The notes beneath the pieces are model-generated. The model had not been told where the DNA came from. It saw nothing but the letters and a program-made list of their open reading frames with translations, and made no database searches. 64,000 nt of DNA from Bradyrhizobium sp. SRL28 (GTDB taxonomy: Bacteria; Pseudomonadota; Alphaproteobacteria; Rhizobiales; Xanthobacteraceae): NCBI RefSeq assembly GCF_018596315.1, contig NZ_JAHEAG010000004.1, positions 124,001-188,000 on the forward strand, in the 5' to 3' direction. This document shows positions 27,475 through 30,764 of the stretch, piece after piece (position 1 is the first letter of the stretch; each line of letters starts with the position of its first letter). The position numbers and the translations under genes are program-made.

Positions 27475-28425
27475 ATGAAGCTCCTTCGATATTTCGCTGC
27501 GGTTGCCCTGATCGTCGCCACCAATTCTACCGTATTCTCTTCCGCATTCGCCGCCGACCCGGTCTTCCCGCCGGGCGCCAGGGTCGGCATGACGCCGCTC
27601 GTCGGCCTCAACAAGGCCAGAACGTTCATCGGATTCGAGACCGAAGACCAGGGCGTCAAGGTGCTGGTTACCGACCTGCCCGCCGAGGCCTATGGCGAGG
27701 TCGCCAATGCCTTCAAGGCCAACCCGGGCGGCACCGGCGGCATCAAGCCGGAGAGCATCGAGACCACGGCGGGACTCGCCTACTACACCGTCGAGAACGC
27801 CAAGGACGGCGCCACCAATGTGCGCCGTTATTCGATGATCCTGCCCGGCCCCACCTTCTCCGGCTATGTTGCCGTACAGGTGCCGGAGAACGCCGCCAGG
27901 ATCTATACCGACGACGCCGTGCGCCAGATGTTCGCTTCCGCCGCGATCCGCGCCGAGGTTCCGGTCGAGGAGCAGCTCGGGCTGCTGCCGTTCAAGATGA
28001 GCGAGCTCTCCAGCTTCAAGAACGTCCGCACGCTGGCGCCGGGCGCGGCACTCATTCTCTCCGACAGCGACGAAAAGAAGGGTTTCGAGATCGCGCCCTT
28101 CATGATCATCGGCCTGATCGGCTCGACGGCGGCTTCGCCCGACGATCGCGGCCGCTTCGCCCAGCAGATCGCGACCACGATTCCCGGCGTGCGCGACGGC
28201 AGGATCACGATGTCGGAGCCGGTCCGCATCGATGGCCAGCCCGGCTACGAGACGCGGATCGACGCCACCAGCGGCAAGGACAATACGCCGGTTACGATCG
28301 TGCAATGGCTGCGGTTCGGCTCCCAGACCTCGATGCGCATCATCGGCTCTTCGCCGCGCGACGACTGGAGCAAGGCCTTTCCGCGCTTCCGCGCTGTCCG
28401 TGACGGGATCCACCCCCGAACCTGA
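27475..28425 (+). CDS. Exported protein of unknown function
   Basis: This 316-residue protein has a clear signal peptide (MKLLRYFAAVALIVATNSTV, cleavage after AFA near residue 26). The mature part contains PPGARVGMTPLVGLNKARTF, RYSMILPGPTFSGYVAVQVP and, near the end, GQPGYETRIDATSGKDN and RFGSQTSMRIIGSSPRDDW. I recognise no catalytic motif or named domain. It is predicted to be soluble in the periplasm. The downstream AraC regulator starts 38 bases after its stop on the same strand. Confidence 0.75.
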   Translation: MKLLRYFAAVALIVATNSTVFSSAFAADPVFPPGARVGMTPLVGLNKARTFIGFETEDQGVKVLVTDLPAEAYGEVANAFKANPGGTGGIKPESIETTAGLAYYTVENAKDGATNVRRYSMILPGPTFSGYVAVQVPENAARIYTDDAVRQMFASAAIRAEVPVEEQLGLLPFKMSELSSFKNVRTLAPGAALILSDSDEKKGFEIAPFMIIGLIGSTAASPDDRGRFAQQIATTIPGVRDGRITMSEPVRIDGQPGYETRIDATSGKDNTPVTIVQWLRFGSQTSMRIIGSSPRDDWSKAFPRFRAVRDGIHPRT

Positions 28426-28462
28426 TTGCCGAAGAACCTGTAACCTCCTCGCGGAGTCCGGG

Positions 28463-29314
28463 ATGTCCGATCTGGCGGCACCCTTCGCGTTCGAATTAGC
28501 CCGGCGTGCACCGTCACAACGCACGGCGGGCCTGATCTCGGGAATGACCGGTTACCGTGAAACGGCGCGGGGCCGGTTTTTCCAGCGCGAAACCGCAGGC
28601 CTGATAGTGCCGCTGATCATAAGCTTCGGCACGCCGTTTCTGATCGCGCTTGGACGCGAGCCCAATGCCGCGGACCAGCAGCCGAGTTTCGCCGCCGGGC
28701 TTCATGCCGGCCCGGTCTTTATCGAGTCTGACGGCGACGCCGAATGCGTGCAGCTCGATTTCACGCCGCTTGGCGCCTATCGCTTCTTTGGCGGCACTGT
28801 GGTCGATCTCGCCGCGCGCATGGTCGACATCGGCGACGTGCTGGGCCGCGAAGGCCGGCAGCTCCGCGAGCGGCTTGGCGCAACATGCGGCTGGCAAAAC
28901 CGCTTCGATCTGATCGAGGATTTCGTGGCTGACCGCGCCAGCCATTTGCCCTCGCCCGAGATCGAATTCGCCTATCACCGCCTGGCGCGCACGTCGGGCG
29001 GTGCACGGATCACCGCACTCGCCAAGGAGATCGGCTGGAGCCGCAAGCACCTCGTCGATCGTTTCCGATCCGAAATCGGTCTCGCACCGAAGCCGATTGC
29101 CCGCATGATGCGCTTCCATCAGGCCTGCCGGCTTGCACGCAGTGGAACCGTGAGCGGCTGGGCCAGGATTGCGGCCGAAAGCGGCTACGCCGACCAGGCG
29201 CATCTCGCCCGCGAATTTTCAGCCCTTGCCGGCGAAACACCAACGGCCTGGGCCCGGCGGCTCGCATTGACCGACAGCCGTCTGGTGCGCCCGCTCGACG
29301 CGCTGGATGCTTAG
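28463..29314 (+). CDS. AraC-family transcriptional regulator
   Basis: This 283-residue protein has a C-terminal double helix-turn-helix DNA-binding domain (about 185-270). The first helix pair is GGARITALAKEIGWSRKHLV and the second is SGWARIAAESGYADQAHLAR with EFSALAGETPTAWARR. The N-terminal half is a ligand/dimer domain of unknown specificity (DFTPLGAYRFFGGTVVDLAA). ATG 28463 follows GGAG. A longer open frame into the preceding gene is not credible. No target can be named. Confidence 0.85.
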   Translation: MSDLAAPFAFELARRAPSQRTAGLISGMTGYRETARGRFFQRETAGLIVPLIISFGTPFLIALGREPNAADQQPSFAAGLHAGPVFIESDGDAECVQLDFTPLGAYRFFGGTVVDLAARMVDIGDVLGREGRQLRERLGATCGWQNRFDLIEDFVADRASHLPSPEIEFAYHRLARTSGGARITALAKEIGWSRKHLVDRFRSEIGLAPKPIARMMRFHQACRLARSGTVSGWARIAAESGYADQAHLAREFSALAGETPTAWARRLALTDSRLVRPLDALDA

Positions 29315-29358
29315 AGCATGCGCCGGAAACGTGGATACCGGCTTAGGCCCAAGTCAGC

Positions 29359-30162
29359 CTAGGCCCAGGTCAGCGGATCAAGCTTGAGATAGAAGGCGAG
29401 CCGCGCCCTGTCCGGTGCCCGGATCCCAAGAGTATCGAACAGGATCGCGAAGGCCTGCGCTTCTTCCTCTCGCGACACCCAGCTTTCGCGTGCGTTGGCC
29501 ACCATCAGTGTGAGATCGACGTAGCGATCCGCCGTTCCGAGGCGACCCAAATCGATCACGCCGGTGCATTGGAAGGTCTCCGGATCGATCATGATGTTCG
29601 GCATGCAGGCGTCGCCGTGACAGACCACGCGACCCGTCACCTCCTGCTCGAGCCGGATTGGCAATTCATCGGCGACCTTCGCCAGAAGCTCGGCCGCCGG
29701 AACGTTCCTGTCGTCCTCCGGCAGAAACGCGGGATTGACGGCATTGCGGGCGACGACATCCGCAGCACGACCGAACATGACCGCCAAGCCACGATCGAAC
29801 GGACACCGGTCGGCCGCAAGCTCGTGGAGAGCTCCGATCTGTCGCGTGATCGACGGCCAGGCCTTGAGCAGATCGGCTCCCGAGAGCTCGCTCGCCGGAA
29901 TGCCCGGGACAGTGGTCATTTCAAGGCATGAACCGTCCTCGGCTTCGCGCCAGTCAACAACCTCGGGGCTGGCGAAGCCCTGCCCCTTGAGCCAAGCGAG
30001 CCGATCGCGCTCGCCGACGAGGTCCGCTGAACGCTCAACCGGCGCAATCTTGGCGTAGACGAGGCCATCCTCCCGCCGGTAGACGCGATCGCCCGATTCT
30101 CCGGTCCTGACGGGTACCCAGTCAAAGCGCCGGTGATCCAGCAACGCGTAAGTCCAATCCAA
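29359..30162 (-). CDS. APH(3'')-like aminoglycoside (streptomycin) phosphotransferase
   Basis: This 267-residue kinase resembles APH(3'')-Ib (StrA) throughout, by comparison with the remembered StrA sequence. Shared blocks include PVRTGESGD, GERDRL.WLKG, LSGADLLKAWPS, FGRA.DVV.RNAVNP, VVCHGD.CMPN and IDLGRLGTADRY. The catalytic Asp is D184 in HGD, and the magnesium Asp is D204 in IDLG. StrA is also 267 residues and ends DPLTWG; this ends DPLTWA. It starts with TTG 30162 after GGGAGAG; an in-frame stop lies immediately upstream. Chromosomal location without mobile elements suggests an intrinsic homologue. Activity on streptomycin is likely but unproven. Confidence 0.85.
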   Translation of the reverse strand: MDWTYALLDHRRFDWVPVRTGESGDRVYRREDGLVYAKIAPVERSADLVGERDRLAWLKGQGFASPEVVDWREAEDGSCLEMTTVPGIPASELSGADLLKAWPSITRQIGALHELAADRCPFDRGLAVMFGRAADVVARNAVNPAFLPEDDRNVPAAELLAKVADELPIRLEQEVTGRVVCHGDACMPNIMIDPETFQCTGVIDLGRLGTADRYVDLTLMVANARESWVSREEEAQAFAILFDTLGIRAPDRARLAFYLKLDPLTWA

Positions 30163-30338
30163 CTAAGACTCTCCCTCGACAGGTCGCTACTCCAGATGGA
30201 TGCTTGGTGCATCTCCGACTCGCCTGCTGCGCCGTCGCTTCATCTCCAGCGCCCCTCGGTCCGGTAACAAATATTCAAGCCGACGCATCGCGCCTCGCGC
30301 ATATTGGCCTCGGCAAGACAGTCAGCAAGGAGTTTCCC

Positions 30339-30764
30339 GTGACGAGTCAAACCGAAATCGAAGCGCAGCGCCTCTATCCGACGATGCGCTGTCGCGATGC
30401 CGAGGCGATGATCCGCTGGCTGAAAGACGTGATCGGCTTCACCGAGCGCATCGTCTACCGCAAGGGCGGCACGGTGCAACACGCCGAGCTTGCCTATGGG
30501 TCCTCGATCCTGATGCTCGGCCAGAGCCGCGACGGCGAATACGGCAAGCTGGTGGGTGACATCGGTGGCCGCCGCACGGACGCGCTCTACGTCGCCGTCG
30601 ACGATCCGGACGCGCTGCACGCCAAGGTCAAGGCATCTGGCGCCAGGATCGAGATGGAGCTGCACGACACGGATTATGGCAGCCGCGACTTCGCCTGCCG
30701 GGACCCGGAAGGCAATCTCTGGAGCTTTGGCACGTACCGGCCGAAAGCAGACGATAAGCCGTAA
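30339..30764 (+). CDS. VOC (glyoxalase/bleomycin-resistance) family protein
   Basis: This 141-residue protein has paired beta-alpha-beta-beta-beta units typical of the vicinal oxygen chelate fold: LYPTMRCRDAEAMIRWLKDV, ALYVAVDDPDALHAKVKASG and DYGSRDFACRDPEGNLWSFG. Members bind a metal and act on diverse small molecules or sequester drugs. This one resembles the PhnB/antibiotic-binding branch, with no clear substrate. The start is GTG 30339, with AAGGAG six bases upstream; a longer frame to 30204 has no ribosome site. Confidence 0.85.
   Translation: MTSQTEIEAQRLYPTMRCRDAEAMIRWLKDVIGFTERIVYRKGGTVQHAELAYGSSILMLGQSRDGEYGKLVGDIGGRRTDALYVAVDDPDALHAKVKASGARIEMELHDTDYGSRDFACRDPEGNLWSFGTYRPKADDKP

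Follow-up and report, generated by a model that had tools for sequence, protein, structure and literature searches.

Bradyrhizobium sp. SRL28 carries a predicted streptomycin kinase gene within an accessory block of ~0.9 kb that has probably moved among related strains by homologous recombination through its flanks. The block lies in the stretch of DNA analysed here (the window; 64 kb of contig NZ_JAHEAG010000004.1, numbered from its first letter). The gene seems to be accessory and horizontally spread within the genus. What is new is an orphan strA-type member of a known family, together with a core locus at which homologous recombination has carried a resistance gene.

In the mechanism we propose, the ~0.9-kb block would be an insertion into the gap that separates the araC-type from the glyoxalase gene in a conserved part of the chromosome, and would pass between related strains via homologous recombination in the common flanking genes, so that an IS, transposon or integron would not be its vehicle. 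Acting alone without StrB, the aph(3'') product would then give moderate streptomycin resistance in a cell with a sensitive S12. We infer that the window copy arrived by the same route as the copy found in a second genome of the genus (G159, below), and any account of the block's first entry into the genus is likewise indirect.

Gene features and family assignment

The aph(3'')-type gene (29359..30162, minus strand) is an intact open frame of 267 codons with no internal stops. It begins with TTG, the first possible start since an in-frame TAG lies immediately 5' of it; the StrA frames in the loci fetched for comparison likewise have a TTG start and 267 aa. A purine-rich stretch resembling a ribosome-binding site, GAGGGAGAG (30169..30177, minus strand), precedes the TTG at a distance of 6 nt, and its letters are identical in the G159 alignment. 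Scans for promoters and terminators gave nothing firm: the sole promoter-like site was inside the aph(3'') gene itself, and two stretches 3' of the gene folded with z-scores of -1.95 and -1.54. GC content was 0.638 (GC3 0.750), the adjoining araC gene having 0.657 (GC3 0.743).

The first-pass annotation had described a StrA-type kinase match along all 267 residues, with D184 and D204 in place, and both points were borne out. The protein scored 380.6 bits (E 3.5e-114) against the APH(3'') equivalog model NF032896, over its cut-off of 325, and aligned along its whole length with plasmid StrA at 62.2% identity (65.4% at the nucleotide level). Its score of 404.9 bits against the APH(3'')-Ib model NF032895 did not reach the cut-off of 600. 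By the NCBI rules it is thus an APH(3''), not StrA itself. The codons of the HGD motif (29611..29619, minus strand; residues 182-184, the Asp being D184) were identical in all seven APH(3'') alignment rows. In the DLG motif (29545..29553, minus strand; residues 204-206), D204 and G206 were identical in 7/7 rows, and L205 was V in the Pseudomonas aeruginosa plasmid protein. Both aspartates align with their counterparts in StrA and 6fuc; we take D184 to be the catalytic and D204 the metal-binding residue. A structure prediction from a three-row alignment (pLDDT 48.5) was too poor for use.

The Pfam APH model matched the window protein with 96.4 bits and had 11 matches across the SRL28 genome. 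In a protein tree of 17 rows, built from 14 of 18 matched loci (L041, L042, L047 and L012, which are StrA copies, a near-copy of L046 and one weak match, were left out), the seven APH(3'') rows clustered in a single clade (100/100), with the ten remaining rows, APH(3')-II included, outside it. Window and G159 rows were paired at 100/99. The phylogeny proposed earlier, with mobile aph(3'')-Ib genes, thus placed the protein in a joint clade with StrA, and the branching order inside APH(3'') was not settled, long branches being flagged. As far as the sequences go, it follows that the window protein and StrA had a common ancestor. Purifying selection was evident between the window and G159 genes (dN 0.058, dS 0.303, dN/dS ~0.19).

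That the window protein is a streptomycin kinase of the APH(3'') kind is well supported by its sequence, and the enzyme probably works and inactivates streptomycin. The S12 protein of the SRL28 genome has unmutated TTTPKKPNSALRK and GGRVKDLPGVRYH stretches, which is the sensitive type; these stretches presumably hold K43 and K88. Resistance via S12 mutation instead was ruled out on this ground. K43 and K88 are S12 positions named in PMC10521367. By analogy, an orphan strA-type gene without strB may confer moderate streptomycin resistance in SRL28, moderate resistance being expected because of the orphan strB of Agrobacterium fabrum (PMC10521367).

Neighbouring genes and searches for mobile elements

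On the left, the gene is adjoined by an AraC-type regulator gene (28463..29314, plus strand; PF12833 on a longer frame, 28232-29314, with the start placed at 28463). The AraC-type gene is convergent with aph(3'') and the next one after it; in relatives, the empty site begins on the left where the AraC-type gene ends. On the right lies a glyoxalase-family gene (30342..30764, plus strand; PF00903), and the region upstream of it is the right edge of that empty site. A Pfam scan covering 13 window proteins placed GrpE, RNase PH, Ham1-family and HemN-like proteins among the other neighbours, as well as an unnamed protein that matched no Pfam family. Also nearby are dnaK and hrcA, which are named from the genes beneath a plasmid match, and a gene that we take from its sequence to be dnaJ.

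The gene had been described as chromosomal and set among ordinary genes without mobile elements, and this was confirmed for the window. Tn3-type transposase, recombinase, IS26, IS5-like, integrase and StrB queries taken from other aph(3'') loci had no matches in the 64 kb at E 1e-3, each query finding its own source locus as a control. No recombinase was found near aph(3'') among the five query proteins and the 13 Pfam-scanned window proteins, and no tRNA genes were found in the 64-kb window. With 24 kb of the window as query, 27 plasmid records matched and none covered 80% of it; all eight matches listed mapped to dnaK and adjacent genes or close by. No viral carriers were found in viral_contigs by a search sensitive to close relatives only, and the three phage-collection matches above 60% identity were all strA. 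The left edge of the insert bears a dispersed intergenic repeat, AGAGCATGnnCCGGAAAnnTGnnnACCGG (29313..29341, plus strand), whose pattern had seven exact matches genome-wide (reversed control 0) and one copy in the window (shuffles 0).

No strB lies directly downstream of aph(3''), in agreement with the controlled window search. A protein search of the SRL28 genome, run without a positive control, found no StrB either. Orphan APH(6)/StrB-like proteins (loci L141-L146) occurred in 14/136 genus genomes at E 1e-10, and the SRL28 genome had no match to the APH(6) model (named control genomes 0/14). One of the 14 matches was a fragment and one exceeded the 325-bit cut-off.

Occurrence of the gene and empty sites

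We investigated the occurrence of the gene across the genus, the class and the phylum. NF032896 matched 45 of 265 genus genomes at E 1e-3, and only SRL28 and G159 were over the cut-off (2/265); the next-best genome, G126, scored 138 bits with a protein 34% identical. In the class sample, SRL28 alone matched at E 1e-30 (1/385). Eleven of the 398 genomes in the phylum sample matched at this level and three were over the cut-off, namely SRL28 and two others (G957, G905) with ordinary strA-strB. A short-peptide-pattern scan of the genome collection, which picks up close relatives only, returned two relatives, a protein of Arenibaculum (76%) and one at 35%.

The G159 copy occupies the same araC/glyoxalase gap beside grpE as the window copy. 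Among 26 loci fetched from the 264 other genus genomes, aph was present in this one, 20 had araC next to glyoxalase without aph, and five lacked the araC gene, so that the locus is variable beyond aph. The site was empty in the best relatives of the window (G232, G182, G235, G191, G160, G004 and G095; 89-92% over a 1,051-nt probe) and in those of G159 (G157, G161 and G158; 96-98% across the grpE part of the probe, its first 601 nt). In the 14 of 20 empty sites whose gap sequence was inspected, the gap was mostly short and ended in a TCCGGTAACAAATCTTCAAGCC-like stretch, with which the window sequence continues on the right-hand side of the insert. The block common to window and G159 spans 29351..30211 (no strand assigned; limits approximate, set by eye on the alignment). 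It consists of the aph gene with ~8 nt behind and ~50 nt before it, and similarity to G159 falls off beyond.

This distribution contradicts part of the earlier interpretation, which had suggested an ancestral or intrinsic determinant. With two carriers in 265 genomes and empty sites in close relatives of both, aph(3'') is not intrinsic to the genus. Nor can it be ancestral in the sense of a recent source of mobile strA, given 62% protein and 65% nucleotide identity; the criteria for recent origin in PMC7782503 are at least 90% (genus) or at least 95% (species) nucleotide identity together with shared synteny. In a four-gene tree of 27 genomes (the 26 fetched plus the window), the aph label needed two changes, and 0/200 bootstrap trees had one. 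All 500 label shuffles were as low, since any two random rows give two changes, so this tree shows only that the carriers are not sisters.

Divergence and a recombination tract in G159

Synonymous divergence between window and G159 was 0.303 for aph (bootstrap 0.21-0.42). It was 0.745 for both direct flanks, araC (0.59-0.96) and glyoxalase (0.50-1.14), 0.592 for grpE (0.44-0.79), 0.528 for the unnamed gene (0.41-0.67), 0.455 for hrcA (0.36-0.57), 0.440 for dnaJ (0.34-0.58), 0.402 for rph (0.30-0.53) and 0.254 for dnaK (0.20-0.31). The common descent of aph thus seems younger than that of its direct flanks. Four of these intervals (hrcA, rph, dnaJ and dnaK) share values with that of aph, and the interval of the unnamed gene barely meets it, so dS alone does not settle its age and leaves room for an old single gain followed by many losses.

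The sequence around the G159 copy was more telling. Compared with its sisters G157, G158 and G161, G159 was 0.89-0.97 identical in the initial 300 bases of araC, fell to 0.68-0.79 from about base 450 to 750, and was at 0.89-0.97 again from the start of glyoxalase; among themselves, the sisters were 0.92-0.99 identical over araC bases 450-750. This drop and recovery indicate that ~1.4-1.5 kb carrying aph, beginning within araC and reaching as far as the glyoxalase start, was replaced in G159. Homologous recombination, which leaves behind no scar of a mobile element, typically produces such a foreign, sharply bounded tract. Consistent with this, the ratio of araC to core dS was 3.41 in G159 (median, 3 pairs) versus 1.65 in close non-carrier pairs (median, 28 pairs; maximum 2.99), and the glyoxalase/core ratio (2.11 versus 1.63; maximum 2.82) was not out of line; ratios were taken from the 22 of 27 rows with all five genes. 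No donor of the tract was found in the 265 genomes, where its araC end matched nothing outside G159 at more than 83%. Because the G159 gene came by replacement of chromosomal DNA, the lack of IS or integron remains does not mark a gene as resident.

Around the window copy, no sharp import tract was found against six relatives, and its flanks displayed mildly raised divergence only (araC/core ratio 1.95, 8 pairs). The flanks of the two copies are less alike (araC dS 0.745) than the aph genes (0.303), so the two carriers did not recently receive one and the same long tract.

Alternative explanations

Two distant carriers with the gene at the same site could also descend from an old resident gene, gained here once in the ancestor of the genus and then lost in nearly all lineages, which would save a weak form of the 'intrinsic' or 'ancestral' claim. 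The GC and GC3 values of aph are near those of araC, its dS interval overlaps several core genes and the window copy is without a sharp tract, all as this history would have it. Many losses would be needed, however, because the 263 other genus genomes, near sisters of both carriers included, are below the cut-off; the aph dS also lies well below that of the direct flanks, and the G159 copy sits inside a recombined tract. We regard such a history as unlikely. We hold a similarly low opinion of a scenario in which a small mobile block, made up of the gene and short flanks, was inserted twice independently at one hot spot, for instance by an unknown element or by dispersed-repeat recombination. 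Such insertions would fit a common block of only ~0.9 kb with similarity dropping right outside it, the dispersed repeat at its left edge, and the proximity of a DDE transposase gene to the Arenibaculum relative. The block is also bracketed by a weak direct repeat of 16 nt (88%; 29304-29319 and 30197-30212), but one copy includes the araC end and the repeat may be due to chance; the searches described above found no recombinase nearby, there is no convincing target duplication, and site-specific insertion leaves unexplained why the G159 tract extends 0.4-0.5 kb into araC.

Many APH-fold proteins are not resistance enzymes, and with 11 Pfam APH matches in SRL28 the protein might have been a kinase with some other, housekeeping substrate. 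We consider this very improbable, as the protein scores over the APH(3'') equivalog cut-off and clusters with StrA and the Streptomyces rimosus APH(3'')-Id (100/100), and a gene with a housekeeping role would scarcely be absent from 263 of the 265 genomes. Homologous recombination of an accessory block through its flanks is thus the explanation we favour.

Comparison with known systems

The closest well-known system is APH(3'')-Ib (StrA) of Tn5393, RSF1010 and many plasmids, with which the window protein shares its length of 267 aa, TTG start, end-to-end similarity and active-site residues. Unlike strA, the window gene has no StrB partner and no mobile flank was found beside it in the window; its nucleotide identity to strA is 65%, its score lies below the APH(3'')-Ib cut-off and its GC content is higher (0.638 versus 0.563). 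The closest relative found outside the genus was the APH(3'') of Arenibaculum pallidiluteum (NZ_JAFIQU010000031.1; 76%, 395.8 bits, over the cut-off). That gene differs in lying on a 35-kb contig, ~400 nt from a DDE transposase gene, with a second short APH-like frame after it. This APH(2'')-like frame (L039, 1910-2494) overlaps the end of the APH(3'') gene and, at 194 aa versus ~300 in the models, scored weakly.

Among the matches listed, the best plasmid match was WP_029771308.1 from the P. aeruginosa plasmid pWTJH6 (65.3%; 372.9 bits, over the cut-off), whose gene, in contrast to that of the window, adjoins aminoglycoside adenylyltransferase, chloramphenicol exporter and tyrosine recombinase genes. 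At the same plasmid locus (L101, 3254-8119), a GNAT gene also lies beside the divergent APH(3'') gene. The best solved relative was APH(3'')-Id of S. rimosus (PDB 6fuc, 6fux), with the same motifs and 50% identity over aligned residues, although it is of actinobacterial source and has a long branch in the tree; 6FUX is this enzyme with streptomycin bound (PMC9731571).

In A. fabrum, an orphan chromosomal strB has been shown to give resistance (PMC10521367). Like the window gene, it is a lone streptomycin phosphotransferase gene in a conserved alphaproteobacterial chromosomal stretch, variable among species and without mobile-element features, but it encodes an APH(6) instead of an APH(3'') and lies at another chromosomal place (PMC10521367). 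By this analogy, the window gene, an orphan of the strA type without strB, is its mirror image.

Significance

Mobile strA is very common on plasmids: at least 5000 plasmid records matched the window gene, at least 4096 of them at 60-80% identity, and among the matches listed nearly all in this band were strA. The table of proposed origins in PMC7782503 (2021) has no row for strA. Although the window gene does not reveal the origin of strA, it contributes an environmental branch that is not mobile. No report of an APH(3'') gene of Bradyrhizobium was found among the titles and abstract openings listed for open-licence papers. We suggest, with considerable doubt, a wider reading in which the araC-glyoxalase gap might be a site where members of this soil genus exchange a lone strA-type gene by homologous recombination, spreading resistance without a mobile element, and in which the genes of the genus and of Arenibaculum could make up a high-GC branch of APH(3'') found in alphaproteobacteria and belonging to the wild reservoir that once yielded mobile strA.

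The G159 locus also carries a warning, namely that 'chromosomal, no IS' should not be read as 'intrinsic', a core locus having taken up a resistance gene there by flank recombination. Carriers of strA alone and genomes with strB-like genes alone, within one genus, make it possible to compare in nature how either kinase performs by itself, a question raised in PMC10521367.

The locus showed further variation. Genomes lacking aph, too, had higher dS for araC and glyoxalase than for hrcA and the unnamed gene (median ratios 1.58 and 1.60, 190 pairs). In G159, an isochorismatase-family gene, presumably nicotinamidase-like, lies between the unnamed gene and araC. It is missing from the corresponding position in the window (28426-28462) and, judged by gap length, from G182 too; elsewhere in its genome, SRL28 encodes a protein 58% identical to the G159 isochorismatase-family protein.
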